Assembly (NCBI GenBank): GCA_016934325.1
Contig: JAFGSV010000031.1
Coordinates: 1 to 36,056, forward strand
Length of the DNA: 36,056 nucleotides
Origin: Candidatus Aenigmatarchaeota archaeon
Lineage (GTDB): Archaea > Aenigmatarchaeota > Aenigmatarchaeia > QMZP01 > JAFGSV01
Direction: 5' to 3'
Within the stretch, counting starts at the first letter, position 1. Each line of letters starts with the position of its first letter. The position numbers and the translations under genes were made by a program. Positions 18,538-35,284 of the stretch are shown here, piece by piece. The notes under the pieces are model-generated. The model made no database searches. It was given only the letters and a program-made list of their open reading frames with translations, and was not told the origin of the DNA.

Positions 18538-18822
18538 TCACTCCCAGTTCACGGTCTTCATCTTTATCTTGAAGAGGCTCTCTATGAAGTCTGTGCCGGC
18601 GTATCCGGCGACCAGGGCGAACTTGACGTCGTTGGCGATGAAGACCCCCGCGAGCAGGCCCATCCCGCCGCTGGAAAGCAGCGAGAGGACGATCCATTCC
18701 TTCCTCACATTCCTCTTCTTGGCGGGGGTCGCGTTAAGGTATTTCGTTATGCCGACGAGTCCCCGTATCACCCCGCCGAGGAAGCCGGCGAGGAATATCA
18801 GAAGGACGCCGAGGCCATCCAT
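18538..18822 (-). CDS. Small membrane protein whose promoter is interrupted by the transposon
   Basis: 94 residues from ATG 18822. Helix 1 is LGVLLIFLAGFLGGVIRGLVG; a basic loop (PAKKRNVRKEW) follows; then a hydrophobic region IVLSLLSSGGMGLLAGVFIA and the conserved-looking FALVAGYAGTDFIESL, reminiscent of small holin-like proteins but not assignable. The open frame reaches 18858, but that lies inside the transposon end. The TIR-derived box AATTTAAAG is about 28 bp upstream of ATG 18822. Without the insertion the native TTTTTAAA (now at 25447-25453 on the right side) would sit about 25 bp upstream, so the transposon separated the gene from its TATA box. Confidence 0.78.
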   Translation of the reverse strand: MDGLGVLLIFLAGFLGGVIRGLVGITKYLNATPAKKRNVRKEWIVLSLLSSGGMGLLAGVFIANDVKFALVAGYAGTDFIESLFKIKMKTVNWE

Positions 18823-18828
18823 GCTTAA

Positions 18829-18837
18829 AGTTAAACC
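18829..18837 (+). repeat. Left target-site duplication, AGTTAAACC
   Basis: A perfect direct copy of 25432-25440. It lies exactly 5 bp outside the TGCACTTT block of the left terminal repeat, mirroring the right side. Confidence 0.88.
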
Positions 18838-18842
18838 GGGGT

Positions 18843-18854
18843 TGCACTTTAAAT
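18843..18854 (+). repeat. Left terminal inverted repeat core
   Basis: TGCACTTTAAAT, 11 of 12 matching the reverse complement of 25415-25426. Read outward on the minus strand it forms ATTTAAAGTGCA, which also serves as a TATA-like box for the 18538-18822 gene. Confidence 0.8.
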
Positions 18855-18860
18855 TCAATC

Positions 18861-18872
18861 TGCACTTTTAAT
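18861..18872 (+). repeat. Subterminal copy of the terminal repeat
   Basis: TGCACTTTTAAT, a perfect 12-bp reverse complement of 25415-25426, lying 18 bp inside the outer copy. Iterated ends are often transposase-binding sites. Confidence 0.75.
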
Positions 18873-18907
18873 CGGTGCAAAACCTGTTTCTAACAGAGGA
18901 GGTAAAT

Positions 18908-19135
18908 ATGACAGAGAAAGACAAGGATGAAACTTTTAAAGAGAAAAACGAAGTTTTAGATATGACGAATGGGAAAAAGAGAAAAAAGATAAGAGTTGAT
19001 AGTCATTTAAGAAAAGTGCCTGGAAAACAAAAAAGAGTGCGAGTAAAAGCCCATTCAAGAACTATAGAAAAGCAAAAAGCAAAACCGAAGAAAAAGAAGA
19101 AGAAAATAGTCTGGAAAAAATTGGCAAGATGGTAG
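18908..19135 (+). CDS. Lys/Arg-rich small protein, possible antitoxin partner of the PIN protein
   Basis: 75 residues from ATG 18908, chosen because AGAGGAGGT lies just upstream, the clearest Shine-Dalgarno in the window (the GTG at 18875 is in frame but falls in the element's end region). The N-terminus is acidic and charged (TEKDKDETFKEKNEVLD); the rest is very basic with two copies of a V-x-(S/A)-H-x-R unit (RVDSHLRKV, RVKAHSRTI) and a KKKKKK run. It looks nucleic-acid binding. It ends 1 nt before the PIN gene, so the two are translationally coupled as in toxin-antitoxin pairs, though it resembles no standard antitoxin I know. Confidence 0.75.
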   Translation: MTEKDKDETFKEKNEVLDMTNGKKRKKIRVDSHLRKVPGKQKRVRVKAHSRTIEKQKAKPKKKKKKIVWKKLARW

Positions 19136-19136
19136 A

Positions 19137-19769
19137 ATGGTGGTTAGGTTTTTTCTGGATTCGAATGTAATTGCTGATTATATTATAATTAACTTGGGAA
19201 TTAACGAAGAGAAACAGGAAATATTGAGAGAAGATTTAAAAGAAATTGAAAAATATCTAAAACAACAATGGAAAGACATTAAACAGCATGCGATATATTC
19301 GTTCCTTCTACTCGAATTATTGAGACGGAAAAAGCATTTTACTCATCATAAGTTTTTCACATCATTATTAGCGGTTTCTGAAGTAGCGTCCGTAATATAC
19401 GAGAAATATTGCATAGATCAAATGTATGAGAGGAGAATCCCATTCAAATACTGGTTTAAGCCCGATTTTGAAATTAAAATCCCGCAGAAAATATTAGAAA
19501 GGATTAGATTATCTATTATAAAATTCCATATGCTTTACATATCAAGAAAAATAATACAACTCGCTGAAAATATTGTGATCCAGGAAGTTACAGATATTAT
19601 TACAAATAAAAAGCGTGATACGCATGATGCATTTCTTTCGGCACAAGCGGTTTTTAATGGGTGTGATTTTTTTGTTACAAATGATGGGAGACTGATTCGT
19701 AAAATGAAAAAATACAAGAATATCGAATATATTAGACCTGAAAGAGCATATAGAGTTTTATGTAAATAG
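19137..19769 (+). CDS. PIN-domain ribonuclease-like protein
   Basis: 210 residues, longer than VapC toxins (about 130). Acidic active-site residues are placed as in PIN nucleases: Asp8 in FFLDSNVIADY, Glu60 in FLLLELL, Asp164 in THDAFLSA and Asp183 in VTNDGRL. A helical, positively charged insert (about 90-160) accounts for the extra length. PIN proteins cut single-stranded RNA with divalent metal ions. Immediate coupling to a basic protein suggests a toxin-antitoxin or RNA-processing unit that could help maintain the transposon. AT-rich codon use. Confidence 0.85.
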   Translation: MVVRFFLDSNVIADYIIINLGINEEKQEILREDLKEIEKYLKQQWKDIKQHAIYSFLLLELLRRKKHFTHHKFFTSLLAVSEVASVIYEKYCIDQMYERRIPFKYWFKPDFEIKIPQKILERIRLSIIKFHMLYISRKIIQLAENIVIQEVTDIITNKKRDTHDAFLSAQAVFNGCDFFVTNDGRLIRKMKKYKNIEYIRPERAYRVLCK

Positions 19770-19848
19770 TTAAGAATACCAAATTTATTTACAAATAAGA
19801 GCTTTTTATAAAAACATTGTTTTTAATCCTTTAATACAAAATTAAATT

Positions 19849-20430
19849 ATGCCATTTACAGAAAAATTGAAATGGGAAGTAAAACGCAAGGCACATTTCA
19901 AGTGTTGTTGGTGTCGTGAAATAAGACATAGTTTAGATGTCCACCACATCGTCCCTGAAAGTGAAAATGGACCCTCTACTTTCGAAAATGCCGCTCCTTT
20001 ATGCAAGAATTGTCACGACATAGTTGGTCACAATCCTAAAAAAAGGAAGGAAATAGTGGAAAGAAGAAATTTCTTATATGAACAATGCGAGAAGTCAAAT
20101 GAAGATACAAAGAAATTGGAAGAGATACACTGCATAGTAACAGACATGAAAAAAGATAACGATGATAAAATGAGAGAAGTAAAATCGATAATGTCTGGTT
20201 TAGTTAAAAAAACTGAATGTCTTTTTTCTAAATTGGAAACTACACCTTCAAGTCAATGGTCTGATACCCTGTCACAAATTGGCACGACAACAAGCACCAT
20301 TTCTACTGGTTCTGGTGCAATGATAGATTTTGGTAATATTCACTCTCAATCTCGTTGTGGTCATTGTGGATATTCTGGATTCCCTATGTCAGGCGGTAAA
20401 TGCCCCGCATGTGGAGGACAGATGGAATAA
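19849..20430 (+). CDS. HNH endonuclease-like protein with C-terminal zinc ribbon
   Basis: 193 residues. The N-terminal HNH fold has Cys19/Cys22, His32-His33 (VHHIVP), Asn47 (FENAAPLC) and Cys52/Cys55-His56 (CKNCHD). A long charged helical region (about 62-130) follows, then a Ser/Thr linker (about 131-160), then a second zinc site, Cys170/Cys173 and Cys185/Cys188 (CGHCGYSGF, CPACGG). HNH proteins cut or nick DNA. The coiled middle suggests a dimer, and the ribbon may bind DNA or protein. As cargo on a transposon it could act in defence or homing. A/T-rich boxes near 19803-19825 could serve as promoter. Confidence 0.85.
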   Translation: MPFTEKLKWEVKRKAHFKCCWCREIRHSLDVHHIVPESENGPSTFENAAPLCKNCHDIVGHNPKKRKEIVERRNFLYEQCEKSNEDTKKLEEIHCIVTDMKKDNDDKMREVKSIMSGLVKKTECLFSKLETTPSSQWSDTLSQIGTTTSTISTGSGAMIDFGNIHSQSRCGHCGYSGFPMSGGKCPACGGQME

Positions 20431-20459
20431 GATATTATTAATAGTTTTCAAGTGGTAAA

Positions 20460-21338
20460 ATGATTTTAATGAATATAAACAAAATTTTGAATGGCAAAAT
20501 GATTTTCAACTTTATCCCAAGGGGTTTTAAGGATATTGACAAAGCGATAATTGTTGTTGCCTTAGTATTAACAGTAACAATATTTTTCTATCTATTCAGC
20601 GGGGCACCTTTTACAATTGCTACTCCAACTAATACAAACATTAAAGGATATGCCGAATATTTAATATTGCCCATATTTTTGGTTTATTCCTTAACATCGA
20701 TAATTGTTATTAGTGTGACATTGAATAAAAGAGGACTCTTGAGAAAGATATCTCTTCTTGGTCTCGGTGCGGGTATATTCATCTCATATCTATTAATTTT
20801 CGTCATAGGAAATGAGAATTTAACATTCGACTCAATGCTTAGTCCTATTATGAGTTATTTCGCAATATCATTTGGATCAATTGCATCAATAACCATTCTT
20901 GTTAGTAAATTTTCACAAACTACGATGAAAACGTCAATAACATCGGTTATTATTTTTCTGATATTCTTCACATTTTCTGCCATGCTATTCGGAAATCTTC
21001 TGATATTCTTTCCTCTATTAACATTCTTCTTCGTGTTGCTTTTTTCTATTCTTACATTAATCACTATTCCTTTCGTTTTTAGCACAGATGATATAAAATA
21101 TGATGGAAAGGATGTTAAATTCAAGGTGATTAATGTTGATATTTTAAATGGAGGGGGTTCAAAAAAATTAGTAATAAAAGCGAGAAAAGAAGGTGAAAAA
21201 ACCATTTCTACATTAATTCCAAGAACTGGTCGATCTTTGCTTGTAACAGATAGTCTTGAACCTGGCGATTTCATTAAGTGCCATTATTTATATGGTGGTG
21301 AAAAGAACTATATTATTAGAGAAATGGAGAAATTATGA
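20460..21338 (+). CDS. Multi-pass membrane protein with cytoplasmic C-terminal domain, unknown
   Basis: 292 residues with about six hydrophobic helices between 28 and 210 (AIIVVALVLTVTIFFYLF; LILPIFLVYSLTSIIVISV; LLIFFPLLTFFFVLLFSIL) and a roughly 80-residue soluble tail that looks beta-rich (KFKVINVDILNGGGSKKLVIKA cut into strands; ITTLIP-like segments). The family is not recognised. It overlaps the following lipoprotein gene by 4 nt (ATGA), so the two are made together and probably work together at the membrane. Confidence 0.78.
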   Translation: MILMNINKILNGKMIFNFIPRGFKDIDKAIIVVALVLTVTIFFYLFSGAPFTIATPTNTNIKGYAEYLILPIFLVYSLTSIIVISVTLNKRGLLRKISLLGLGAGIFISYLLIFVIGNENLTFDSMLSPIMSYFAISFGSIASITILVSKFSQTTMKTSITSVIIFLIFFTFSAMLFGNLLIFFPLLTFFFVLLFSILTLITIPFVFSTDDIKYDGKDVKFKVINVDILNGGGSKKLVIKARKEGEKTISTLIPRTGRSLLVTDSLEPGDFIKCHYLYGGEKNYIIREMEKL

Positions 21339-21742
21339 AAAATTATATAGTATCCATAATAATTATTCTAATAGTTTTTAGTAGTGGTTGTGTCATTTTT
21401 GACAATTTAAACATTAAGAGGTCAATTAATATCGAAAATATTGGAACTGGGGATAATTTTAGAGTGGATGTCTCAATTGAGAATCAGGTAAATGAACCTA
21501 TTATTGTCAATGAGGTTAGTCTAGTTTTTGATGAAGACCAATTTACATGTATACCACAAAGTCAGCCAAACTTGAATTTACAAATATTACCTGGAGATAG
21601 AAAAGTAATTGAATTCGATAGATGTGAAGAAGATTATAATGCTGTTCCAGGTGAATTTCTGATAAAAGGTATACTTATTTATACAAGGAATAATATTCAA
21701 CAAAAATTGGATATTGAAGGGGCAAAAAGAATTGTAGAGTAA
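21335..21742 (+). CDS. Small lipoprotein coupled to the membrane protein upstream
   Basis: 135 residues. The signal is MKNYIVSIIIILIVFSSGC, with the lipid-carrying Cys19 in SSGC. The mature part looks like a single beta-sandwich (FRVDVSIENQVNEPIIVNEVS; RKVIEFD) with Cys67 and Cys87-like residues that could pair. It should sit on the outer face of the membrane beside the multi-pass partner whose stop codon it overlaps. No known family was recognised. Confidence 0.75.
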   Translation: MKNYIVSIIIILIVFSSGCVIFDNLNIKRSINIENIGTGDNFRVDVSIENQVNEPIIVNEVSLVFDEDQFTCIPQSQPNLNLQILPGDRKVIEFDRCEEDYNAVPGEFLIKGILIYTRNNIQQKLDIEGAKRIVE

Positions 21743-21775
21743 AGAACAGAATCACTAAATAGAAATGTGATATGA

Positions 21776-22033
21776 TTAAAACCAGAAAGTATCTTTCTTT
21801 TTCGGTTTTTTTACTCTTTTCTTCGGAAAAATTAAGCCGTCTCCTATTGTCTGGGTTCTCGCTCCAGGCATGACTTTCTTTCTTGGAAATATAAGCCCGT
21901 CCCCAATTGTTCTCATTTTCTTCCCCCTGTGTTTATATGGTTTCCAAGAATATGAACAACTTCTACAAAACATCTTCCCTGGTTCCGATGCCTGTGTTTG
22001 ACTACTTTTGCATCTTGGACATTTTATCCCCAT
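21776..22033 (-). CDS. Zinc-ribbon protein with a duplicated TIGDGLIFP motif
   Basis: 85 residues. The N-terminal zinc ribbon has Cys5/Cys8 (CPRC) and Cys23/Cys26 (CRSC), like transposase or transcription-factor ribbons. The rest is basic and holds two near-identical units 20 residues apart: RTIGDGLIFPRKKV (41-54) and QTIGDGLIFPKKRV (61-74). The motif is unfamiliar and looks like a short binding peptide. Its start is 1 nt from the stop of the 22035-22250 gene, so the two form an operon on the minus strand. Confidence 0.72.
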   Translation of the reverse strand: MGIKCPRCKSSQTQASEPGKMFCRSCSYSWKPYKHRGKKMRTIGDGLIFPRKKVMPGARTQTIGDGLIFPKKRVKKPKKKDTFWF

Positions 22034-22034
22034 A

Positions 22035-22250
22035 TTACCATCCTATCTCGCTCAATTTCTTCCTGAAATATATTGCTAATGCAACTATAGTCCCTGCACT
22101 GAACAGAAACCACTTAAATATTTCTCCCCCTATCTGGCTGGATATAACTTCACTCACAATAAGAATTCCAAAAATGAAAACCAATGGCACTACGATGAAG
22201 GTAAAAACAGCTTCTTGCACTTTGCTTTCATACTTGGTGTGTCTTGGCAT
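22035..22250 (-). CDS. Small two-helix membrane protein
   Basis: 71 residues with two hydrophobic segments (AVFTFIVVPLVFIFGILIV; WFLFSAGTIVALAIYF) and basic ends (MPRHTKYESK; RKKLSEIGW). The function is unknown. ATG 22250 is supported by a TATA-like TTTTTATAAATC (minus strand, about 22273-22284) about 28 bp upstream. The zinc-ribbon gene follows after 1 nt. Confidence 0.68.
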   Translation of the reverse strand: MPRHTKYESKVQEAVFTFIVVPLVFIFGILIVSEVISSQIGGEIFKWFLFSAGTIVALAIYFRKKLSEIGW

Positions 22251-22286
22251 ATTTCAGATTTCTCATTGTGATTTATAAAAAAATGT

Positions 22287-22550
22287 TTAAACGGAAGTTG
22301 TTTCCTTGAGTTTTGAGAACAATTCCTTACCTTTTTCTGTTAATTCATATACTCTGCCGAACTTTTCTTCTGGTGTCAGACATCTAACGAGATTCCTGTC
22401 GGAAAATTCTTTCAGTGCCCTGCTTATGTGAGTCGTGGATAGCTTCAACTCGCTACTTATCTGTGAAGGGGTTTTCGGTTTTTCCAATGCCATTAAAACT
22501 TTTCTTCTCGTCCTCCCTCTCACCACGAAACTGTAAGAAGCCCATTCCAT
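22287..22550 (-). CDS. Winged-helix transcription regulator (MarR/ArsR-like)
   Basis: 87 residues. The winged helix spans about 12-80: RRKVLMALEKPKTPSQIS, then the recognition region STTHISRALKEFSDRNLV, then the wing FGRVYELTEKGKELF. This layout is common in small archaeal regulators. ATG 22550 has ACAAATTAAAT about 26 bp upstream on the minus strand. It is divergent from the transglutaminase-like gene, with overlapping promoter regions, so it probably controls that gene and itself. Confidence 0.82.
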   Translation of the reverse strand: MEWASYSFVVRGRTRRKVLMALEKPKTPSQISSELKLSTTHISRALKEFSDRNLVRCLTPEEKFGRVYELTEKGKELFSKLKETTSV

Positions 22551-22642
22551 ATATATCAGAAAGAGACCATTTAATTTGTCTTAATCGACCGAAAAAAGAC
22601 CAAAAATATACCATTTATAAAGACACACAGCATATGATAGTC

Positions 22643-23671
22643 ATGAAACCAACGCACTGGAAATTCTTATCGGTTTTATGTATAGTCGTTATTGTGCTTA
22701 TTTCAGTTGTTCTATACACGACCATTTTATCAGAGCAGAATTCATGGAATATGTTGAAAGATCAAAATGAATTAGTGGAATCACAAAGAGCGACTATTAA
22801 CCGTCAAACTGCTGATTTGTTTAATAAAGGGCAGAAAATCGAATATCAGCAAAGCACCATAAAGCAGCTTAACAACACTGCGGAAGAGCAGAAGACCCGA
22901 ATTGATGATATGGTAGACGAATTATGGAATTTACGAAACGAAGTTGGTTCTTTAAATCAAATATTGAGTCTGAAGAGCACTCAACTTCAACTCACAGAAG
23001 AAGAACTTGCACAGATAAGTAACGATCTTGAATCTACCCAAGGTGAACTTGCCGAAACATCCCGTTTGCTGGATCTCGCTACGGAATTCGAAGATAGAGT
23101 CATGCAAGGCATCGACAGGTCGAAGTCTTATTTATTGCTGGGTCAATATGAAAAAACAGTGAGTATTGTCTCGACATTTACTGATGTATATCCTGCAACC
23201 AATGATGTTGAATTGTGGTCGAGGGCTGCCGACATATACAATTGGCTCGGTGAACATTATTCCTATTGTTCAGACAAAGGTTTTTGCGTAGGAAATAATT
23301 GTTATCAGTTGCAGTATTTCTCACCAGACGAACTTCTTTATTACGGTGCCCAGGACGTTCTATGTGGCGATTGTGACGATTACGCACAGCTTTTTGTGGG
23401 AATGATGTATGCATCAGGAGTTCCTCACGATAAGGCAAGAGTAGAATGTGGGTTAGTTCCTGTTGGTGGTCATTGCTGGGCAGCGGTTAACATCGATTCT
23501 CAGTGGTATAGGATTGATCCTGTATGTTCAGACCCAGCTAAATATATCGACTTTTTCGGTTATCAGATTCAGATATCGGGTGAGGAATTCCCAGAATATT
23601 TCAGTCACGTAGATTGCTTCGATTCGTATCAATTAACGAATTGGTATACAGCCGAAGAATTCCACCAATAA
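22643..23671 (+). CDS. Membrane-anchored coiled-coil transglutaminase-like protein
   Basis: 342 residues from ATG 22643. An N-terminal anchor helix (FLSVLCIVVIVLISVVLYT) is followed by a long coiled coil (about 32-150, rich in Q, E, L) and a transglutaminase-like cysteine domain whose triad is visible: Cys244 (GDCDDYAQLF), His277 (GGHCWAAV) and Asp292 (YRIDPV). The domain should face outward and could hydrolyse or crosslink peptides, or have lost that role. The frame runs upstream to 22415, but TTTATAA (22614-22620) centred 26 bp before 22643 supports the chosen start; ATG 22634 is close. Its stop is 1 nt from the convergent winged-helix gene. Confidence 0.83.
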   Translation: MKPTHWKFLSVLCIVVIVLISVVLYTTILSEQNSWNMLKDQNELVESQRATINRQTADLFNKGQKIEYQQSTIKQLNNTAEEQKTRIDDMVDELWNLRNEVGSLNQILSLKSTQLQLTEEELAQISNDLESTQGELAETSRLLDLATEFEDRVMQGIDRSKSYLLLGQYEKTVSIVSTFTDVYPATNDVELWSRAADIYNWLGEHYSYCSDKGFCVGNNCYQLQYFSPDELLYYGAQDVLCGDCDDYAQLFVGMMYASGVPHDKARVECGLVPVGGHCWAAVNIDSQWYRIDPVCSDPAKYIDFFGYQIQISGEEFPEYFSHVDCFDSYQLTNWYTAEEFHQ

Positions 23672-23672
23672 A

Positions 23673-23927
23673 TCAGCGTTTGGTGCGTTTCTTCCTTCTT
23701 CTCTTTGTAACCAATTTCCAGCGTATTGTGCCACCCAACTTTTTTCTTTTGACTTGTAAGTATCCCCTTCTGAACAATCTTGCAAGAGTGTCATGTGCTG
23801 TCTGCCAACTCATTTCCAAGATTTCTGACAATTCATGAGTTGTATACTCGTGATCTCTATTCATCCGCATTTCATGTAGTATCGATATTTCCCTATGGGT
23901 GAATTTAGCTTTTCTTCTCACTGGCAT
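23673..23927 (-). CDS. Small basic winged-helix protein
   Basis: 84 residues. HTH pattern: FTHREISILHEMRMN, then TTHELSEILEMSWQTAHDTLARL and a short wing, ending in a very basic tail (TKRRRKKRTKR) suited to DNA binding. It overlaps the 3' end of the AbrB-like gene by 23 nt and is read after it, so the two form an operon and probably co-regulate element genes. Confidence 0.78.
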   Translation of the reverse strand: MPVRRKAKFTHREISILHEMRMNRDHEYTTHELSEILEMSWQTAHDTLARLFRRGYLQVKRKKLGGTIRWKLVTKRRRKKRTKR

Positions 23928-24243
23928 TTTTACTCACCTTCTTTTTCCTTCCCCTCTTCTTGACCTTTCTAACTATATTGCACCAAAATTCATCGACCCG
24001 AATTTCTTGCTTGGCTTTTACAGGCTTCCGCACAACGAATTCTAAACTAAAACCAGCCTCCAAACTTAAAACTTCCTTTATTTCACGAGGAAACCTGACG
24101 AATAACTGACCATACGAATCTTTGCTTATGGTAGCAGTCTCAACTATCTCGGTTTCGTCCAACGGAAGGTCGTCATCAATATCTCTGGGTTTTTGGGGGA
24201 GTTCCCATTCAGTTTCCGTATTTGAACGTGTGTTATTTTCCAT
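23905..24243 (-). CDS. AbrB/SpoVT-like DNA-binding regulator
   Basis: 112 residues. Residues about 36-80 fit the AbrB/MazE swapped-hairpin fold (ATISKDSYGQLFVRFPREIKE, split after residue 55, then LSLEAGFSLEFVV). The N-terminus is acidic and the C-terminus very basic (KKRGRKKKV). AbrB-type proteins bind as dimers to short repeats. Three AACATACG copies lie between this gene and the divergent transposase, two of them flanking this gene's own TATA box (ACTTTATATAG, minus strand, about 24265-24277), so autoregulation and transposase repression are likely (inference). Confidence 0.75.
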   Translation of the reverse strand: MENNTRSNTETEWELPQKPRDIDDDLPLDETEIVETATISKDSYGQLFVRFPREIKEVLSLEAGFSLEFVVRKPVKAKQEIRVDEFWCNIVRKVKKRGRKKKVSKNASEKKS

Positions 24244-24256
24244 ATTATATTAATTT

Positions 24257-24344
24257 AACATACGTCTATATAAAGTTTTAATTAAACATACGAAAAAACG
24301 AAAGATATTTAAAACTTCTATACCATATTCTCAATAAACATACG
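24257..24344. promoter_or_regulatory. Three AACATACG operator candidates in the AbrB/transposase intergenic region
   Basis: AACATACG at 24257-24264, 24285-24292 and 24337-24344, all in the same orientation. The first two bracket the TATA box of the AbrB-like gene. The third overlaps the probable transposase promoter (AATAAA about 28 bp before ATG 24365) and sits in the centre of an inverted repeat TTCTCAA/TTGAGAA (24328-24334/24349-24355). Confidence 0.6.
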
Positions 24345-24364
24345 TAATTTGAGAATGTGATGTT

Positions 24365-25419
24365 ATGATGCAAACGACCGTAAGGACATTCAGAGAGAAG
24401 GGTAAGAGAAAGAAGCGACACTGGACTCAATACAATCTTGCACATACAAGCGAGAAGATAGTAGCTATGAGGATACTCAACGAGGCTGTGAATTCGCTTA
24501 ACATACCATATGAGTATAACGGTATTGGAAGACCGCCTATGGGAATTGACGATATGATAAAATGCTGTGTTGTCAAGGTCTACAATTCATTCAGCACGAG
24601 GCACATAATTCCAGACCTGAATTATGCACATGCACTTGGTTACATAAAACAACCACCGCACTTCAATATCATATCGAAATATATGAGAAATCCTGAAATC
24701 GAGGAATATCTTCACAAATTATACAACATTCTTGCCCAACCTTTAGTTGGTATAGACGAGATATTCGCACCAGATGCTACTGGTTTCGGAACTCACAAGA
24801 AAGACTGGATGGAAACCAGAGGGTGGTTCAGGTCGAAAAAGGTGTCTCTTTGGAAAGAATTCAAGAAATTGCACATAGTATGCGGAACATTGACGACGAT
24901 CATAACCGAAGCGAGAACCAGTGAAGGTCGCTGCCACGATTCACCGTTTTTCAAGGATTTAATCCGAGAAACTGCAAAGAGATTCGATGTGAAATATGTT
25001 TGTGCCGACTCAGGCTATCTATCGAAGGACAACTGTGAATATGTAAAGGAATTGGAGGAAAGCCTTTTATCAAACCAAAGACGAACATGCGGGAAAAGGC
25101 TATCATAGAGATTAAAAACGGCAAGAAAATGACACCTTGGAGAGAGATGGTCTGGTTCTGGGTGAATCATAGACAAATATTCGAATTGTATTACCATCAG
25201 CGTTCAACAGTGGAAAGTGTATTCTCGGCTATCAAAAGGAGATTTTTACCTTATCTCAGAAGCAAAGACGATCAAGGGCAATACAACGAAATGTTATGCA
25301 AGGTCGTTTGTCACAACTTGAGCGTGCTTGTGAATTCCATCTTCACACTCGGTCTCACTGCTGATTTCAACAGGAAGGTCACCGCAGCGGAAAACCGCTT
25401 CTATAAAGACAGGTATTAA
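24365..25419 (+). pseudogene. DDE transposase, broken by a single-base frameshift
   Basis: Two frames join into one IS4/IS5-like transposase of about 350 residues. Frame one (24365-25108) has a helical N-terminus (RPPMGIDDMIKCCVVKVYNS), the first acidic residue in FAPDATGFG and the second in VCADSGYLSKDN. The reading then continues one frame back (open from 25039 to 25419) with GKPFIKPKTNMREKA and the Glu motif STVESVFSAIKRRF. Restoring one G near 25054-25057 would give ELGGKPFIKPK, the expected family sequence. Loss of one G from a run, an assembly error, or programmed -1 shifting are the options; no classic slippery heptamer is seen. The final TAA (25417-25419) lies in the right terminal repeat. 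Confidence 0.85.
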
Positions 25420-25426
25420 AAGTGCA
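25415..25426 (-). repeat. Right terminal inverted repeat core
   Basis: ATTAAAAGTGCA: perfect reverse complement of 18861-18872 and 11 of 12 to 18843-18854. It overlaps the transposase stop codon and lies 5 bp inside the right AGTTAAACC copy. Confidence 0.82.
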
Positions 25427-25431
25427 CACCT

Positions 25432-25440
25432 AGTTAAACC
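25432..25440 (+). repeat. Right target-site duplication, AGTTAAACC
   Basis: A perfect copy of 18829-18837. Outside it the sequence continues as the second half of a palindrome (TTAAACCA 25434-25441, TT, TGGTTTAA 25444-25451), so the element entered a symmetric divergent promoter region. Confidence 0.88.
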
Positions 25441-25508: not shown

Positions 25509-25922
25509 ATGAGGGCGCAGGCGGCATTCGAATACATGCTCATCGTCATAATAGCCCTCGCCTTCATGGTGCCGGCGTGGACGTACATAACCTCGGTCAA
25601 GACCGAGGCAAGCGAAGAGCTGGCCCTATCCTACGCCAAGAGCAGCGTCGACAGGCTCGCCAGCACGGCGGACCTGATCTACTCCCAGGGGCCTCCCGCC
25701 AAGGTGAAGGTCCACGTCTACATACCGGACGGGGTCGAGGGCTACAACTTCACCAACAAGACCGTGGCCCTTTTTGTCAGGTACCGGAACACGGTCACGC
25801 CCGTCTACGCTGATTCCAAGGCGTCGCTGAACGGCACCCTTCCCCTCGTCGAGGGCAACTATTGGATGCAGGTGGAGGCGGTCGAGAATGACAACTATGA
25901 TGTCTTCGTCCAGGCGGTGTAA
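25509..25922 (+). CDS. Type IV pilin-like protein with class III signal peptide (1)
   Basis: 137 residues from ATG 25509. MRAQAAFEYMLIVIIALAFMVP is, in two parts, a short leader ending before the QAAFEYM motif and a hydrophobic helix: the archaeal class III (DUF361-type) signal cut by a prepilin peptidase. The exported domain looks beta-rich with several N-x-S/T sites (NFTN, NGTL) that could be glycosylated by the cluster at 12-18 kb. The frame extends upstream to 25461, but GTTTTTATTG (about 25474-25483) lies about 29 bp before 25509. It is in an overlapping pair with the next gene. Confidence 0.88.
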   Translation: MRAQAAFEYMLIVIIALAFMVPAWTYITSVKTEASEELALSYAKSSVDRLASTADLIYSQGPPAKVKVHVYIPDGVEGYNFTNKTVALFVRYRNTVTPVYADSKASLNGTLPLVEGNYWMQVEAVENDNYDVFVQAV

Positions 25923-27735: not shown

Positions 27736-28338
27736 TCACCACCTCTCCCATATCCATTCGAACTCCCCGGGACCGGATCCGCGCTCCGTGCGCTTCCAGT
27801 TGTACATGAGCAGACCCCCGAAGATTATGCCGCCGAGATGCCCGAAGTGGGCAATCCCCGACGCAATGTCCGTGAAGCCCGCCAGTATCGAGAACGCGAT
27901 GAACCCTATGACCACGTACATGGCCTTTATGGGAACCGGGATCGGGAATATGATCAGCCTGTTGTTCGGGTACTTCACCGCGTAGGCGGTCAGCACGGCG
28001 TAGACCGCGCCGCTCGCGCCCAGCATCGGTATGTCGGATATGCCGGTAAGCAGTATGTGGAACAGCGCCGACCCGACCCCGGACACGACGTACATGGTCA
28101 CGAACCTCCTGACGCCAAGGAAGCCCTCTACGGCCGAGCCGAATATGAACAGCCCTATCATGTTCAGCCCCAGGTGCTCGATGCTGGCGTGGGCGAACAT
28201 GTAGGTGAAGAACTGCCAGTACATGCCGGACAGCGCCATGGTCGGGGTCAGGGCCAGGATCAGCGTGGACTGCGCCATGGTGACCTGGAGCAGGAACACC
28301 AGGAATGTCGCGCCCATTATGGCAAGGGTCACCTTCAT
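27736..28338 (-). CDS. Rhomboid-family intramembrane serine protease
   Basis: 200 residues with six membrane helices. The H-x-x-x-N pair is seen in His55-Asn59 (EHLGLNM), the nucleophile Ser109 in GASGAVYAVL and the base His167 in FGHLGG, so it should be active. Rhomboids cut other proteins inside or next to the membrane. The C-terminal tail (SGPGEFEWIWERW) is cytosolic. Its start codon overlaps the stop of the giant subtilase by 4 nt (ATGA), so it is made with it and could process membrane-anchored surface proteins (inference). Confidence 0.95.
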   Translation of the reverse strand: MKVTLAIMGATFLVFLLQVTMAQSTLILALTPTMALSGMYWQFFTYMFAHASIEHLGLNMIGLFIFGSAVEGFLGVRRFVTMYVVSGVGSALFHILLTGISDIPMLGASGAVYAVLTAYAVKYPNNRLIIFPIPVPIKAMYVVIGFIAFSILAGFTDIASGIAHFGHLGGIIFGGLLMYNWKRTERGSGPGEFEWIWERW

Positions 28339-31300
28339 TTCTTCCTCACCCCCTTCCGGAAAATTTCACCTATCATGGCCCTCAGCCGCTGCAAGTGCTG
28401 CAAGAGCACGTCCATCTTTAATGATTGCAGCATGCTTATAAACCAAAGCCAGTCGGTCTTGAAGGATTCGACCTGGACGAAGACCTCGCCGAACTCGTTC
28501 TGGCCCACGAATCCCGTCAGCTCGACCCTTCCCTTGGGTCCCGGGGGGTTGCTGAAGACCAGGACCTGGCCCGTCTGGTCCTCCAGCGTGGAGCCCATGA
28601 TCCCCGTCTGCTCCTGCATGGTCTGGGATATCCTGCCGCTCAACCTGACCTTCTTGTCAAGGAAGTGCTCGGCATTGCTGAGCAGCTCGGCGCTGTTCGT
28701 CTCTATGATCTCCCATTTGTGCTCCAGCGACTCCCAGCTGAGCTCCTTCATGCTCCTCGTGTAATAGAAGTATCCCGCCCCGCCGATGATGATCACGGCC
28801 ACGACGACCAACGCGATTAACCCGAAGTCGAAGCCGATGGGCTGCATCCCGCCCGCGACGCAGGTGGAGTTCTCGCAACCGATGGCGCACTCCTCCACGA
28901 TCATCCAGCCCCCTTCGAGGTACTGCTGGACCGTTCCGCCCGAGCACCGCCTTTCCCCGATCGCAGGCTGGGTCATCAGCGCAGCCTTGCACGTCAGGGT
29001 CGCCGGGTCGCATCCGTTCTGGCACTTCTCTTTGTCCTCCCACTGGCTGCCGTCGGACCTGCACTGCTGCAGCATGCTGCCGCTACACCTCAGATGGCCC
29101 CCGGTGCACAGGGTACTGCAAGCGCCGCCCTCGCAGCCGTTCGGGCATACCTGGCTCGTTTCCCACGCGTCGCCCGCGGTGTTGCACTGGACGAGGTTCC
29201 CGGTGAGCGAGCACTTGACGGCTCCCGGCGTGCAAAGGATCTTGGACTCCTGCACGACCAGGCTCGTCCGCACGCTTGCCGATGCCTGCTGGTCCGACGA
29301 CGCCGACAGGTCCAGGCCGAATGCGCCGAGGTTCTGGGTGTACGGGACGGTTATCGAGAGGCTGAAGTTCCCCGACGTTCCCGGGCCCATTGACCGGGAT
29401 GAAGGGGTAACCAGGAACTGGCATTCCGAGCAGTCGGTGGCGGCCGACAGGGACACTCCGGTCAGGTTCGAGTAGCCGTTGTTCCTGACCCCGACGTTCA
29501 CGCTCTTGCTTCCGCCCTGGATTATGGTTATGCTCGAGGGGTAATCCGCTATCTGGATCGATGAGGTCGTGTAGCCGTTGCCGCCCCCCGAGTTATGGCA
29601 ATCGCTCGTGTCGAACAAGCAGCTGCCGGTGCAGCCGAGCGAGCCATAGTCATATCCCAGCGAATCGCACGTCTCGCCGTCCATGTCCCCGCCGTCGCAT
29701 TCCTCCGCCTGGTCGTCCACGACCCCGTTGCCGCAGTACTCCTCCCCTACCGCGTACGCGGAGAAGGCGGTAGCGTTCAGGATAATCATGTCCCTGGCCT
29801 TGTCGAGCGAGTAGTCGTCGCCTTCATCGAGCTTGTTCCCCCAGCCGCTCGCTCCCCCCGCGCAATGCCTCTGGGACATGTTCCAGCTGCCGCACTTGTA
29901 GGCGACGATGGCGCTCTCGTCGGTTATGAGCCCCGAGTACGGGACCGTGATGTGGGCGTTGACGAAGCTGAGGTTCGTCTCGGCGGCGATGACCGACCTG
30001 AACTGCTTGTCGGCGGGTGGCTCCACGAGCTGTGGAGGGACGTCGTCGATGCTGAAGGTTGCTGTCAGGTCATCGATGAAGAAAGCATAGTGCAGCGTGA
30101 TCCAGAAGCCTCTGCTCAGGTTCAGGTCCCAGTTATCCTGCGGGACCTGGAAGGAATGGTTAGTGACCGTCTGGGCGGATTCCCTCACGTGGCCGTCCGA
30201 CGGGCTGATGACCGACAGGGACATGTTCATCGGGGCATCCAGATGGTCCCTGAAGAGCAGCGTTATCTGGCTGGCCGGCCTGATCTCCATGACATCGATG
30301 ACTGTCTCGTTGCCCGCTCCCAGCGTGTCGTTGGCGAAGATGCCGACGTCGTAGTAGCCGTCGGGCAGCGCGGCCGAGGCGTTGGCCCCGTATGCGCTGC
30401 CCCCCAGCGGCTGCATCTGGCCGGACTGCGAGCCGGAATCGCCGCTCATGTTATAAAGAACATGGGACAAGCCGTCGGTGTCCGTGACGTCGGCAGTTAT
30501 GCTCAGGGTCTCGCCGGAAAGGAGCAGGTGCGGCATGACCGATGCCGAGGATATCCCGGGCGGGGAATTGACCCTGGCCGACCTCCTGGGCGTCGAATTG
30601 AGGTTGCCGGAAGGGTCGTCAGCGTAGACCGTGTAATAGAACCAGCCGCCGCCCAGGCCGGTCATGTTCATGTAGCAGTAGGTGTCCTCGCCGTCCTTGA
30701 CCATGGACATGCTGACGTTCGATCCCGAATCCTCCCATTCGAGCAGGCAGGCCGTCAGGTTCTCGTCGGCCGAGACGTTTATGAAGAGCCAGTCCAGGTT
30801 CGTGTAATTCCCGTCGGGCAGCGTCGGGTAGGAGAAGGCCAGGCCGGGCGGATCGCCGTCTTCCCATCCGCTAGGCGTGCCGTAGGCGTTTGAATCGGTA
30901 ACGTTGCCGTAGTTCGAGTCGGTCCCGGGGATGAAATAGGGCGGCTCCGTGCGTCCCCAGAAGTTGCCCGAGCCCTGGTAGGAGAGTTCTATCGCCTCGT
31001 CCGAGTGGACCGGCTCCTCGCCTTGCAGGGCGGTCTGCATGATGTTGTTCTCTGTCACCACGAGGTCGCCCGCGCCCTGCAGGTAAAGCCCGCTGAAATC
31101 GGCGCCCGTGATGTTGCACCCGCGCACGCTCGAGCCGTCGGAGTTCTGAATGGCATAACCGTACCCGACGCCCGATATCTCGCTCCCCTGCAGCCCGACG
31201 TGATGGCTGTCCAGCACGTACACGCCGAACCCGTTCAGGGAGAGGTTGGCGTTCGTTATGTTCACGTGGCTCGAGTTTATGATGGTTATCTTGCCTATGT

Positions 31301-34300
31301 TCGACGCGTTGAGCTCATGCAGGTCGATGGATCCCAACGTGACCGGGTCGCTCTCGGTGCCGTGCACGTCATAGTAGTAGTGGAGGGGCTCGCCGTTCAC
31401 CGTGTTCGACTGGTTTATGTGGTTGTATGTCGCAGCGTATGATTCGACGAAAAGGCCGTACCTCCCGAAGTGGTTCGTGACCTGGTTGCTGGAGAACTCG
31501 TTGTAGGAGCCGCCTACGTACAAGCCACCCTTGTTTCCATCGATGGTGTTTCCTTGCACTTCGTTGCCGTCCCCCTTGACGGAGATGCCGGTGCAGTTGT
31601 TGCCGGATACGTTGTTCCAGCGTATCGTCGATCCCGCGTCCCCGACCCCGATGCCGCCGAAGTCGAAGGAGAACGGGATTCCGAAGATGATGAAATCGAA
31701 CAGGCAACTGGAGGTACCGGTGACGTTGTTCCCCTCGATCGAATTGTTTTCTGAATCGCTGGTGAATATCCCTACCAGCACGTTGTCATGGACCTCGTTA
31801 TCCGTGACCGAGCTGTCATCGGTCTCTATGAGCAATATCCCTCCCTCGTTTCCCTCTATCGTATTTGAAGCGATCGACAGGTTCGCCGATTGATAAGCAT
31901 AGATGCCGTAGAAGCTGCCGCTCAGATCGAAGCCGCTCAGGTTGACGAAGCTTGAGTTTACGGCCATTATCCTCCCGACGTTGGTCACGTTCGGGACGGT
32001 CAGCGCCAGCGGAGACGCGGTGATGGGGGAAACCTGCGTACCGTGGTCGTCATGGAAATGGAGCAGCGGCTCCGAGTTGACGGTGTTGCTCTCGTCGATG
32101 TCGTTGAACAGGGAATCGAAGTCCTCGAAATAGATACCTTGCTGGTAATCCTGGCTCTTCGATATCGAGTTGCCCGTGAAGTTGTTGCCGCTGGAGCCGC
32201 CGTCGATGAAAATGCCGGCCTTGGCGTCGCTCACTGTGTTGTCTTCGATCAGGGACCCCGTCACCCTGTCCAGCTTGATGCCGTCACCGAATACGCTGTT
32301 CCCGGTTATCGTCACGTTGTCGGAATAGGCGGCCTCGAGGTGGCCTGACTCTTTGCCCAGGCTGATGAACTGGTCGTCAGCATCATAATAATAATTAACC
32401 GGCCGGTTATCTACCTCGTTGCCTGCGTCGATGTCATGGTCGAAGTAGCCGCCGGCGCTCCCGCTGACCCATAGCCCGACTCCGTTGCCGTTCATGCTGT
32501 TGTTCTTCAGCGTCGACCCGCTGGCGAAATCGAGGAATATTCCGTACTGGAAGTTCTCGAGAACGCAGTTCCTGATGTCGACGTCATCGCTTTCAACAAG
32601 GATCCCCGACCCTTCGCCCTGGCCGGTGATGTTGCTGTAATCGCAGTTGAGGGTGACGTCGTCCCTGTAAATGCCGATGCAGTCCCCGTCGGTCGATGAT
32701 ATGTCGCCGTCCAGGAAGAAGAGGCTCGCGTTCTGGTAGTTGTTGATCTTGTATTCGCAGTCTTCGCAGCTCACGCATGTCGTGCCGTTGTTCAGGACCC
32801 TCACGACCACCCTGTCCTGCGACCAGCCGCCGGACGAATGGACATGCAGCAGGACGCTGTACAAGCCGTCAGGCTCGTTCGTCGTGTCCCAGCTCCCAAG
32901 CTTGCCGCCGTTCTCCTCGATCGTGCTGAAATTGATGGTGTTCCATGAAGGGGGATACGCCCCGGATCCGTATGACAGGGTATAGTTGATGAAGTTACCC
33001 CCTGAGGCCGTGCCGAGAATGTCGACGCTGCCCTCTACGACCTCCCCGAAGGACAGCGAGGATATGTCGGAAGCCGGAACCTCATCGATCTGCATGGCCA
33101 TCCTAAGGTTGATGCGGCCGAATCCCATGTACTCGTCATGGTCGACGGGGTCTGTCGAGCTCTTGATGATCTTCCTCACCTCCTGCTGGCTGAAGCTCGA
33201 ATTCCTTGAGAGTATGAGCCCCGCGAGCCCTGCGACATGAGGGCATGCCATAGAGGTTCCCATCCACGAAGCGTAGGTATCATCGACCATCGTGCTCAGT
33301 ATCGCTGTGGAGGGGGCGGAGGGGGAATCCCCGCCAGGCGCCGCGACGTCCACCCAGTAGCCGTAGTTGGAATAGGACGCCTTCTTGTCATCGTTCTTCG
33401 TCGCCGAGACGGCTATGACGTTTCCGTAAGCCGCCGGATAGCTGGAATCCATGGAGTCCGTGTCGTCGTTTCCTGCCGCCGCTATCAGGATGGCGCCGCT
33501 GGCATAGGCGTCGTCCATTGCCTCCTGCAGCATGCTCGAGTGCTCCCCGCCGAAGCTCATGCTTATTATGTCGGCGCTGTTCTTCACGGCGTACTCCAGA
33601 GCCTGCGCTATGTCGTCCTCCTTCAGGACCCCGCCAAGGGGGTGCTTGAAGCCAGCCCTTACTGCCATCACGGTGCAGTTCCTGCACACCCCCGCCACCC
33701 CGATCGAGTTGTCCGTGACCGCCGCCGCAATGCCGGAGCAATGAGTCCCGTGGCCGTGGCCGTCCATGGGGTCGTTGTCCTCGTCCTCGCAGTCGGCGTC
33801 GATGCATCCCGAAGCTGTCGCGCTGTCCACGAAGTCGTATCCCCTGCAGTCGCCGTATATGCCGTTGCCGTCAAGGTCCGTCGATTCGTTGCAGTCCTCG
33901 TCCGTGTTGTTCCAGATGTTCCCGGCCAAGTCGGGATGGTCCCAGTCGACGCCGGTGTCGATGATCGCGATGATTATGCCATGGTCTCCTTGCTCTATGT
34001 CCCAGGCATCCCCGCTCTCCATCAACGTGTGGGTCCACTGCTGGTAGAAGCTCGCATCGTTGGGGGCATCGAACGCCCTGTATATGTAGTTCGGCTCGGC
34101 GTACTCCACGAGCGGGTTCTCGCCGTACTCCATAACCGCGGACGCCACGTCCGCGTCATCTTCAAGCTCCAGCCTGTATATCCTCGACAGGCCATCGTGC
34201 CGCTCCTGCTCTCCAGAATCGGCTGCCTTGAGCTTCATCACTTTCTGGTTTTCCTGCCCTGCCTGCATGCCGAACACCCTTGTTATCCTCACCGCCCCGT

Positions 34301-34760
34301 ACCTGGCGTTCAGCTCGTCCAAGGACTGGGACGGACCCGCCTCGGCCACTCCGGCGATCAGGGCCCCTGCCATGCCGTCAGGGGGGGCAGGGCCGAAGGA
34401 CGCCCCCGGCCTGAGCTTGACTATCAGCTCCCCCGGCGCATGCGGTGGCAAGGCGTCGGCAGCTTCCTCATCTTCCAGGGGGACCCTGATTCCCAGGAAC
34501 CTGCGCCTCATGTCGCTGCCGTTGAAAAGATATTCGGCTTTCATCCTGTCGAGGAGGCTACCCATGATTTCCGGGCTGTCATGATTACTGCCGGGCCGCA
34601 TGAGAAGGGGATTCCCGTGGGGATTCGCATCCCCCGGCGCATTTTCGGTGCCAACCGGATCATGTCCCCCGGCCAGGAGACCGCCGGCAGCCGTCCCAAG
34701 AACGAAAGCTGATATGATTATGAGAAATGCTCCTGACACTAACAATAGCTCCGTCTTCAT
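28335..34760 (-). CDS. Giant membrane-anchored subtilase (S8) with beta-helix and Cys-rich stalk
   Basis: 2141 residues from ATG 34760. Signal peptide (ELLLVSGAFLIIISAFVLG); prodomain (about 105-230, ELIVKLRPGA to EPNYIYRA); S8 protease (about 240-550) with Asp268 (IIDTGVDW), His337 (GHGTHCSG), oxyanion Asn431 (AAAGND) and Ser503 (GTSMACPH); an Ig-like domain to about 660; a NosD-like parallel beta-helix (about 660-1265); more Ig-like domains; a CGNGVVDD-type Cys module (about 1672-1722); a CARDB-like domain; three or more Cys repeats (about 1842-1965); a membrane helix (LIALVVVAVIIIGGAGYFYY, about 1975); and a cytosolic OB-like tail. The frame runs upstream to 34991, but AATATTTATTC (minus strand, 34782-34792) centred 27 bp before 34760 and the signal peptide fix the start. 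First gene of the operon. Confidence 0.93.
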   Translation of the reverse strand: MKTELLLVSGAFLIIISAFVLGTAAGGLLAGGHDPVGTENAPGDANPHGNPLLMRPGSNHDSPEIMGSLLDRMKAEYLFNGSDMRRRFLGIRVPLEDEEAADALPPHAPGELIVKLRPGASFGPAPPDGMAGALIAGVAEAGPSQSLDELNARYGAVRITRVFGMQAGQENQKVMKLKAADSGEQERHDGLSRIYRLELEDDADVASAVMEYGENPLVEYAEPNYIYRAFDAPNDASFYQQWTHTLMESGDAWDIEQGDHGIIIAIIDTGVDWDHPDLAGNIWNNTDEDCNESTDLDGNGIYGDCRGYDFVDSATASGCIDADCEDEDNDPMDGHGHGTHCSGIAAAVTDNSIGVAGVCRNCTVMAVRAGFKHPLGGVLKEDDIAQALEYAVKNSADIISMSFGGEHSSMLQEAMDDAYASGAILIAAAGNDDTDSMDSSYPAAYGNVIAVSATKNDDKKASYSNYGYWVDVAAPGGDSPSAPSTAILSTMVDDTYASWMGTSMACPHVAGLAGLILSRNSSFSQQEVRKIIKSSTDPVDHDEYMGFGRINLRMAMQIDEVPASDISSLSFGEVVEGSVDILGTASGGNFINYTLSYGSGAYPPSWNTINFSTIEENGGKLGSWDTTNEPDGLYSVLLHVHSSGGWSQDRVVVRVLNNGTTCVSCEDCEYKINNYQNASLFFLDGDISSTDGDCIGIYRDDVTLNCDYSNITGQGEGSGILVESDDVDIRNCVLENFQYGIFLDFASGSTLKNNSMNGNGVGLWVSGSAGGYFDHDIDAGNEVDNRPVNYYYDADDQFISLGKESGHLEAAYSDNVTITGNSVFGDGIKLDRVTGSLIEDNTVSDAKAGIFIDGGSSGNNFTGNSISKSQDYQQGIYFEDFDSLFNDIDESNTVNSEPLLHFHDDHGTQVSPITASPLALTVPNVTNVGRIMAVNSSFVNLSGFDLSGSFYGIYAYQSANLSIASNTIEGNEGGILLIETDDSSVTDNEVHDNVLVGIFTSDSENNSIEGNNVTGTSSCLFDFIIFGIPFSFDFGGIGVGDAGSTIRWNNVSGNNCTGISVKGDGNEVQGNTIDGNKGGLYVGGSYNEFSSNQVTNHFGRYGLFVESYAATYNHINQSNTVNGEPLHYYYDVHGTESDPVTLGSIDLHELNASNIGKITIINSSHVNITNANLSLNGFGVYVLDSHHVGLQGSEISGVGYGYAIQNSDGSSVRGCNITGADFSGLYLQGAGDLVVTENNIMQTALQGEEPVHSDEAIELSYQGSGNFWGRTEPPYFIPGTDSNYGNVTDSNAYGTPSGWEDGDPPGLAFSYPTLPDGNYTNLDWLFINVSADENLTACLLEWEDSGSNVSMSMVKDGEDTYCYMNMTGLGGGWFYYTVYADDPSGNLNSTPRRSARVNSPPGISSASVMPHLLLSGETLSITADVTDTDGLSHVLYNMSGDSGSQSGQMQPLGGSAYGANASAALPDGYYDVGIFANDTLGAGNETVIDVMEIRPASQITLLFRDHLDAPMNMSLSVISPSDGHVRESAQTVTNHSFQVPQDNWDLNLSRGFWITLHYAFFIDDLTATFSIDDVPPQLVEPPADKQFRSVIAAETNLSFVNAHITVPYSGLITDESAIVAYKCGSWNMSQRHCAGGASGWGNKLDEGDDYSLDKARDMIILNATAFSAYAVGEEYCGNGVVDDQAEECDGGDMDGETCDSLGYDYGSLGCTGSCLFDTSDCHNSGGGNGYTTSSIQIADYPSSITIIQGGSKSVNVGVRNNGYSNLTGVSLSAATDCSECQFLVTPSSRSMGPGTSGNFSLSITVPYTQNLGAFGLDLSASSDQQASASVRTSLVVQESKILCTPGAVKCSLTGNLVQCNTAGDAWETSQVCPNGCEGGACSTLCTGGHLRCSGSMLQQCRSDGSQWEDKEKCQNGCDPATLTCKAALMTQPAIGERRCSGGTVQQYLEGGWMIVEECAIGCENSTCVAGGMQPIGFDFGLIALVVVAVIIIGGAGYFYYTRSMKELSWESLEHKWEIIETNSAELLSNAEHFLDKKVRLSGRISQTMQEQTGIMGSTLEDQTGQVLVFSNPPGPKGRVELTGFVGQNEFGEVFVQVESFKTDWLWFISMLQSLKMDVLLQHLQRLRAMIGEIFRKGVRKK

Positions 34761-34781
34761 GAAAGAGAATTGCCGATGCGG

Positions 34782-34792
34782 GAATAAATATT
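34782..34792 (-). promoter_or_regulatory. TATA box of the subtilase-rhomboid-pyrophosphatase operon
   Basis: AATATTTATTC on the minus strand, centred about 27 bp from ATG 34760. It lies inside the spurious upstream extension of the frame and so supports the shorter protein. Confidence 0.6.
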
Positions 34793-34822
34793 GTCCAGGA
34801 AAAACGGCTGGAGCTCGGAATC

Positions 34823-35284
34823 TCAGATCTCCGTTATGTCCTCGTCGTACCCTTCCCAGGAGTTCAGGAAGGAGTTCAGGTCCTCGAAGGGGACTATGGG
34901 CACACCGTCGTGGATGACCATCCCCTCGGGAAGCAGCGTGACTATGAGCGGAATAATGCCCTTGTCTGTCTCGGACTTCAGCAGCATGCACCTCTCAGCC
35001 TGCTTGGCTGCCGCCGACCTGAGCTGCGATTCCCTGTATCTCCTCCCCGTCCACCTTTTGCAGTCCGCGGCGAAGAGGTGCCTCTGGCTCTCGGCCAGGA
35101 CATCGTACTGCCTCCTGCCCCAGCTGCCCTTCCTGACCGCGCCCACCGTGACATCGTAGCCGTTCTGCTCGAACACGAAGCCTACCAGCATCTCGAAGTA
35201 CTGCCACTTCATCCTGGGGCCTATGGATTCCAGGTCCCGCATGGTCCGGACAGGCAATTCCGGGTTTCTCATGAGCTCCACCAT
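34823..35284 (-). CDS. PD-(D/E)XK nuclease-like protein (restriction-endonuclease fold)
   Basis: 153 residues. The fold pattern is visible: Glu31 in a helix (QYFEMLVGFVFEQNGY), Asp61 (QYDVLAES), and Asp74-x-Lys76 (FAADCKRW), followed by the helix ESQLRSAAAK and a final VPIVPFEDLNSFL that is common in archaeal Mrr/RecB-like small nucleases. It probably cuts or binds DNA; the substrate is unknown. The start is ATG 35284, or ATG 35272. It stands alone upstream of the giant protease, which has its own promoter. Confidence 0.82.
   Translation of the reverse strand: MVELMRNPELPVRTMRDLESIGPRMKWQYFEMLVGFVFEQNGYDVTVGAVRKGSWGRRQYDVLAESQRHLFAADCKRWTGRRYRESQLRSAAAKQAERCMLLKSETDKGIIPLIVTLLPEGMVIHDGVPIVPFEDLNSFLNSWEGYDEDITEI

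Follow-up and report, generated by a model that had tools for sequence, protein, structure and literature searches.

The window analysed here is the whole of contig C12 (36,056 bases), one of the 35 contigs of a 1.24-Mb assembly from an archaeon of the phylum Aenigmatarchaeota. It contains a 6.6-kb AT-rich block that is very probably a DDE transposon from a widespread, divergent, IS5/IS903-like cargo family, whose archaeal members mostly insert 6 bp from a TATA box and which, presumably by serial entry at one site, can build up arrays. A preliminary description of the window had already called the block a cargo-bearing archaeal transposon defined to the base, which homologous elements, their ends and their duplications bear out; it did not mention that the transposase gene is frameshifted, that the target site adjoins a promoter or that elements can stack.

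Ends, transposase and insertion site of the block

The block lies between two perfect copies of the 9-bp sequence AGTTAAACC, which occurs exactly twice in the window (0.14 occurrences expected). Just inside these copies, both ends of the block consist of the same type of 13-bp sequence in inverted orientation, 5 bp followed by TGCACTTT, with GGGGTTGCACTTT at 18838-18850 on the left and, read as the reverse complement, AGGTGTGCACTTT at 25419-25431 on the right. The two ends match each other at 12 of 16 positions and have degenerate starts (GGGGTTG and AGGTGTG). When the whole window was searched for 16-bp inverted ends (at least 12 matches, spacing 1.5-10 kb) next to 9-bp direct repeats of any sequence, the AGTTAAACC pair was the sole return; a comparable pair was found in 7 of 100 Markov-shuffled windows. 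The G+C content is about 0.59 outside the left repeat and 0.57 outside the right one, but only 0.31-0.41 in the DNA that they enclose. The perfect repeat, its 5-bp distance from each TGCACTTT end and the change in composition at both edges had all been reported in the preliminary description and are confirmed here. A further TGCACTTT repeat, 18 bp inside the first at the left end, is a feature of the family: the distal ends of the window element and of an element in G004, a genome from the same archaeal family, are homologous, with 31 of their first 40 bases identical, the inner repeat included.

A search of the host's own genome with the whole block found this single copy and no second one. 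Another contig (C23) carries a transposase relic with mismatched family ends, in a 4-kb AT-rich island (L074, 7440-11402) with left end GGCTTTGTTTAATAAG, right end GGCTTTGCACAAATAG and the C-terminal part of a transposase; the island is perhaps the wreck of two stacked elements.

The gene next to the right end encodes a DDE transposase, as had been proposed, but its earlier placement, with the gene ending inside the right repeat, needs correction: the frame stops at 25417-25419 and overlaps the 13-bp right end by 1 base. The frame is also broken: compared with an intact relative, one base is missing near 25055, which splits the gene in two. The N-terminal part shares 65% identity with a complete 343-amino-acid (aa) protein encoded in G004. 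Programmed frameshifting was rejected by eye because the homology switches frame upstream of the only slippery-looking run, and it is also disfavoured by the single open frame of the close relative's transposase. With this frameshift the window element would be mobile only if the shift is an assembly error or if another copy acts in trans. No close relatives of the transposase fragment were found in a scan of the genome contig collection, and the viral contig collection gave no match to the window transposase.

An uninterrupted version of the insertion site is present in G001, a further genome of the same family, in which the orthologue of the gene to the left of the block (81% identical protein) has TTTTTAAACCAAATGGTT upstream. 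Read on the minus strand, the window site is TTTTTAAA-CCAAAT-GGTTTAACT, and this arrangement is conserved upstream of the orthologue: the G001 sequence runs TTTTTAAACCAAATGGTTGATATTTTAAT-ATG, and the window with the block removed runs TTTTTAAACCAAAT-GGTTTAACT-TTAAGC-ATG. Across the junction 18 bases are identical, and since 14 of these lie to the right of the block and the rest inside the 9-bp repeat, the block interrupts an ancestral upstream region. The TATA box of the left gene lies 21 bp before its start, and the element probably parts this 94-aa gene from that box in the window. The preliminary description had suggested looking in related genomes for an empty site and for further copies whose ends are alike but whose 9-bp duplications differ; both are found. 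Conserved synteny of the flanks within the family was considered and set aside; in G002 the two flanking genes are not neighbours, and in G003 they are on separate contigs.

A cargo transposon family and its target site

A profile search of the class found the transposase in 27 of 156 genomes. For each transposase with enough flanking sequence, an element was called where 16-bp inverted ends lay just inside a 9-bp direct repeat; one (G060a), whose duplication was off by one base, was fitted by hand. Together with genomes added later, this defined 36 elements, all with a homologous transposase, ends of the GGCTTTG type and a 9-bp duplication. Of these, 29 are archaeal (Aenigmatarchaeota and Methanocellaceae, counting one whose contig was binned as Omnitrophota) and 7 bacterial (Acidobacteria, Blastocatellia, Rubrobacter and Actinobacteria). 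The ends are all of one sequence type and match at 11-16 of 16 positions, and the duplications differ between independent elements (GGTGGAATG, AAAGCTTTA, GGTAATCTG, CGACTGACC, TATTCCCTA and others). The G004 element, for example, is 6.9 kb long and has an intact transposase gene, ends GGCTTTGCACTTTTAA and GGCTTTGCACTTTAAA and the duplication GGTGGAATG. The transposase gene, of about 1-1.5 kb, is the only one common to the elements; all 36 carry passenger genes and measure 2.6-7 kb, with one array member of about 32 kb. Restriction-modification is the commonest recognizable cargo in Pfam and PADLOC searches, with N6-adenine methylase or Eco57I-type proteins recurring in 9 of the 36 elements. 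Many family transposases have an N-terminal SWIM zinc finger, which is absent from the clade of the window transposase.

The contig binned as Omnitrophota (L057, JAOAET010000052.1), which is possibly a misbinned archaeal contig, encodes a transposase 52% identical to that of G004, with a TATA-like box slightly off the usual register. Beside full elements, short stretches of about 95-110 bp with the same 9-bp repeat and family-type ends (L064, 8513-8621 and 12116-12225; L134, 1045-1140) are possibly miniature non-autonomous copies, similar to miniature inverted-repeat transposable elements.

In most of the archaeal elements, one of the two flanks reads TATWTAAA, six bases, and then the 9-bp duplication. 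Scoring the better of the two flanks against TATWTAAA at every gap from 0 to 55 bp gave, in a first set of 19 elements, a mean of 6.63 of 8 at gap 6 against 3.0-4.7 at the 55 other gaps; scores of at least 7 were reached by 12 of the 19 elements at gap 6 and by none or one at any other gap. Because the consensus had been seen first in these 19 elements, ten more were collected from another archaeal group; in these the mean was 5.7 at gap 6, and the other gaps averaged 3.4 and did not exceed 4.5. When a matrix derived from the first set was applied to the second, it scored 4.3 bits at gap 6 and at most 0.1 at all other gaps. Among all 29 archaeal elements, 22 score at least 6 of 8 at gap 6, compared with an average of 1.65 elements at each of the other gaps. 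One of these matches (H135A) is the end of an adjacent element; without it, 21 of 29 count as TATA-adjacent. Unlike this fixed-gap scan, a simple TATA matrix taking the best hit anywhere gave no clear peak.

The archaeal B recognition element (BRE) has the consensus cRnAAnt. On the element side of the TATA box, matches to the BRE-like motif cRnAAnY average 3.6 of 5, against 1.6 of 5 on the opposite side; reading outwards, the six bases fit the archaeal BRE, with its C as the last base of the duplication, and are followed by TTTAWATA. Open frames of at least 80 codons that start 12-60 bp past the TATA box are found in the outward direction in 13 of 22 cases and inwards in 4 of 22. The position of the BRE and the gene starts thus place the usual insertion site directly upstream of an intact, outward-pointing core promoter. 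For most elements they also replace an initial proposal, that the promoter reads into the element, by one in which it reads away.

Two elements sharing one 9-bp sequence were found at five loci (G004, L022, L063, L069 and L135), and a Blastocatellia contig (L148-L151; G159, contig C66) carries five different elements in tandem over 53 kb (positions 7,890-61,105), which share GAACCATAG as their 9-bp sequence; each has a matched end pair of its own, and one is about 32 kb long. Three of the archaeal arrays (G004, L069 and L135) have a clear TATA box, and in each of them the neighbouring element is found on the opposite side from it. Such a layout is consistent with elements entering one after another at a target that every insertion leaves usable, in an order that is inferred.

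Cargo of the window element

The block and its immediate surroundings are listed in Table 1. Of the passenger proteins proposed in the preliminary description, the HNH protein with its ribbon stands, the PIN assignment is weak, and the surface protein described as Cys-protease-like is transglutaminase-like instead.

Table 1. Features of the block, its ends and its flanking genes in window coordinates.
Feature	Position	Strand	Basis or remark
Host gene, 94-aa membrane protein, left of block	18538..18822	-	ancestral TATA box probably across element
Left 9-bp target-site duplication AGTTAAACC	18829..18837	+	sequence count in window
Left (distal) end, GGGGT-TGCACTTT, with second TGCACTTT 18 bp further in	18838..18868	+	
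Small Lys/Arg-rich protein, 75 aa, no family	18908..19135	+	family search and sequence
PIN-like protein, 210 aa	19137..19769	+	weak, E 0.009, below Pfam cut-off
HNH endonuclease domain and C-terminal zinc ribbon, 193 aa	19849..20430	+	Pfam HNH, E 3e-9
Multi-pass membrane protein	20460..21338	+	homologue in neighbouring family remnant of G004, 30% identity, E 6e-17
Lipoprotein-like partner, overlapping the membrane gene	21335..21742	+	same pair in G004, 31%, E 2e-12
Small zinc-ribbon-like protein, 85 aa	21776..22033	-	sequence
Small membrane protein, 71 aa	22035..22250	-	sequence
Winged-helix regulator (HVO_A0261-type)	22287..22550	-	E 7e-9
Membrane-anchored, coiled-coil, transglutaminase-like protein	22643..23671	+	Transglut_core, E 7e-9
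Winged-helix regulator, 84 aa	23673..23927	-	MarR_2, E 3e-4
AbrB-like protein by eye, 112 aa, divergent to transposase	23905..24243	-	no family match
Transposase N-terminal part with both catalytic Asp, 247 aa; frame lost near 25055	24365..25108	+	DDE_Tnp_1, E 2e-12
Transposase C-terminal part, -1 frame, Y-(2)-R-(3)-E-(6)-K signature	25057..25419	+	72% identity to intact G004 transposase
Right (transposase-proximal) inverted end, AGGTG-TGCACTTT, continuing TTAATACC	25419..25431	-	G004 counterpart GGCTTTGCACTTTTAATCCC
Right 9-bp target-site duplication AGTTAAACC	25432..25440	+	sequence count in window
Target-site context, 6-bp spacer ATTTGG then TATA-like TTTAAAAA	25441..25454	.	
Host pilin-like gene, right of block	25509..25922	+	

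In G004, a family end (GGCTTTGCACAAAAAG) directly beside the complete element belongs to a remnant (L021, 12962 to about 16000) that holds the membrane-lipoprotein pair and what is left of a transposase gene, and for which no far end was found. As the pair recurs there beside a transposase relic, it travels with this transposon family. Homology between the transposase-adjacent regulators of the window and G004 elements was considered and is unsupported (E 0.002 and no match); their arrangement alone is alike. Elsewhere in the window, a second AT-rich stretch (G+C content 0.32-0.36) occupies the left end of the contig (1-2000), and a minus-strand open frame of 2,218 codons (28335-34991) would encode a giant protein.

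Alternative explanations, classification and significance

In the mechanism suggested by these observations, GGCTTTG-type inverted repeats with an inner repeat spaced at 18 bp enclose the transposase gene and variable passenger genes, and transposition yields the 9-bp duplication that flanks the defined elements. In archaea the duplication starts exactly 6 bp from a TATA box, as the gap statistics show, mostly just upstream of the BRE and TATA box of an outward-pointing gene, whose promoter would thereby survive. With the TATA side of the target preserved, further elements could enter the same site, and arrays would come to share one 9-bp sequence. Comparison with G001 suggests that the element in the window inserted into the intergenic DNA of the gene for the 94-aa membrane protein and probably separated this gene from its TATA box. 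We tentatively suggest, as a possibility somewhat short of an even chance, that the archaeal core promoter is itself recognized by the transposase, or by a partner of it, either as BRE/TATA sequence or through putatively bound TATA-binding protein and transcription factor B, and that cargo is placed 6 bp away. Promoters that survive would then be used repeatedly as landing sites, and cargo transposons, of which many have restriction-modification genes, would accumulate there into islands.

Several observations weigh against the interpretation of the block as a promoter-targeting cargo transposon. The window's own transposase is broken, and its ends pair less well (12 of 16) than those of most relatives (13-16 of 16). 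The G001 match spans 18 bp only, and the gene on its other side differs from that in the window; the matching bases are therefore probably those of the left gene. The TATA consensus was picked by eye from the first set, about 7 of the 29 archaeal elements (G023, G032 and H132 among them) show no clear fit, and bacterial members give no TATA signal in the gap scan. At the window site itself the TATA box scores 7 of 8, but the BRE match is poor in both directions (2 of 5 and 1 of 5), and the orientation of the promoter there is uncertain. Finally, the interpretation as a whole is drawn from sequence, and most of the genomes are metagenome assemblies.

An ordinary genomic island, that is, an AT-rich block with a chance transposase and a coincidental 9-bp repeat, would be compatible with the composition shift taken alone, with the 12-of-16 end match and with the roughly 7% of shuffled windows that give a comparable pair; it is refuted, however, by the occurrence of homologous ends elsewhere, at sites unrelated to this one and flanked by different perfect 9-bp duplications, and G001 carries the site uninterrupted, which leaves this explanation with almost no probability. 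Far-fetched, although less so, is the explanation of the TATA spacing as a by-product of selection for intergenic insertions: in a compact archaeal genome, where intergenic DNA is mostly promoters, a TATA box is expected near any such insertion, but selection of this kind predicts a spread of distances, whereas the signal is confined to one of 56 gaps in both sets.

Two further alternatives are unlikely, to a similar degree. Stacking might arise because new elements recognize the ends of resident elements and not the promoter, and in the Blastocatellia array and others the ends do directly abut the shared 9-bp sequence; most archaeal insertions, however, are single, with a TATA context only, and in G004, L069 and L135 the neighbours lie away from the TATA box, as serial entry on the promoter side predicts (three cases only). 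The block might also be a self-maintaining defence island, in line with the self-maintenance or defence set suspected in the preliminary description; here the PIN and basic proteins would form a toxin-antitoxin pair, and the HNH protein with its ribbon would have a restriction function. The HNH domain is solid and restriction-modification genes are frequent in sister elements, but PADLOC returned only weak partial hits for the window cargo and no convincing or complete anti-phage system, the PIN call is weak, and nothing marks the basic protein as an antitoxin; for the window copy, a defence set is thus not borne out.

As a promoter-targeting cargo transposon, the block belongs to what is best called a divergent IS903-like family. 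Its transposases resemble those of IS5/IS903 in being of DDE_Tnp_1 type (RNase H-type DDE) with the Y-(2)-R-(3)-E-(6)-K signature, IS5 being the best NCBIfam match, and the 9-bp duplication and ends starting GGCTTTG are likewise shared; one member has the end AGCTTTGTTGAATAAG, close to that of IS903. By contrast, identity to annotated plasmid relatives is about 23-29% (about 23% for named IS5/IS903B), four intact close relatives score 99.7-115 bits, under the curated NCBIfam IS5 cut-off of 140, many members have the SWIM zinc finger, and, unlike compact IS5/IS903 elements, every defined element carries passenger genes. Transporter insertion sequences similarly combine an IS-type transposase and ends with genes unneeded for transposition, but in this family elements regularly carry cargo (2.6-7 kb, with a maximum of about 32 kb), and in archaea they have a fixed target site at promoters. 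Unlike casposons, the window element has neither a Cas1 integrase nor a family B DNA polymerase among its cargo genes. The yeast retrotransposons Ty1 and Ty3 also integrate near promoters, guided by the transcription machinery, but are retroelements that use an integrase. The nearest functional parallel is provided by the prokaryotic Mutator-like elements TnGBS, ISLre2 and ISKra4 (p-MULT), which insert 15-17 bp upstream of the sigmaA -35 box (Guerillot et al. 2014, PMC3942029) and share with this family a fixed distance from host promoters and large cargo-bearing members. The transposases described here, however, are of another superfamily, matching DDE_Tnp_1 in Pfam and not the Mutator models, and the archaeal members sit 6 bp from an archaeal TATA box.

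The open-access literature yielded no description of the family or of TATA-targeted insertion in archaea, and the family is apparently undescribed so far. Fixed-distance promoter targeting is known from some bacterial Mutator-like elements and yeast retroelements; within that literature, no report extends it to archaeal TATA promoters. The elements described here provide an archaeal transposon family with exact boundaries and a simple, directly testable landing rule for mobile DNA. They also offer a mechanism by which gene islands, many with restriction-modification genes, may build at one point in tiny archaeal genomes, and a means of studying how cargo moves in the Aenigmatarchaeota, which are uncultured.

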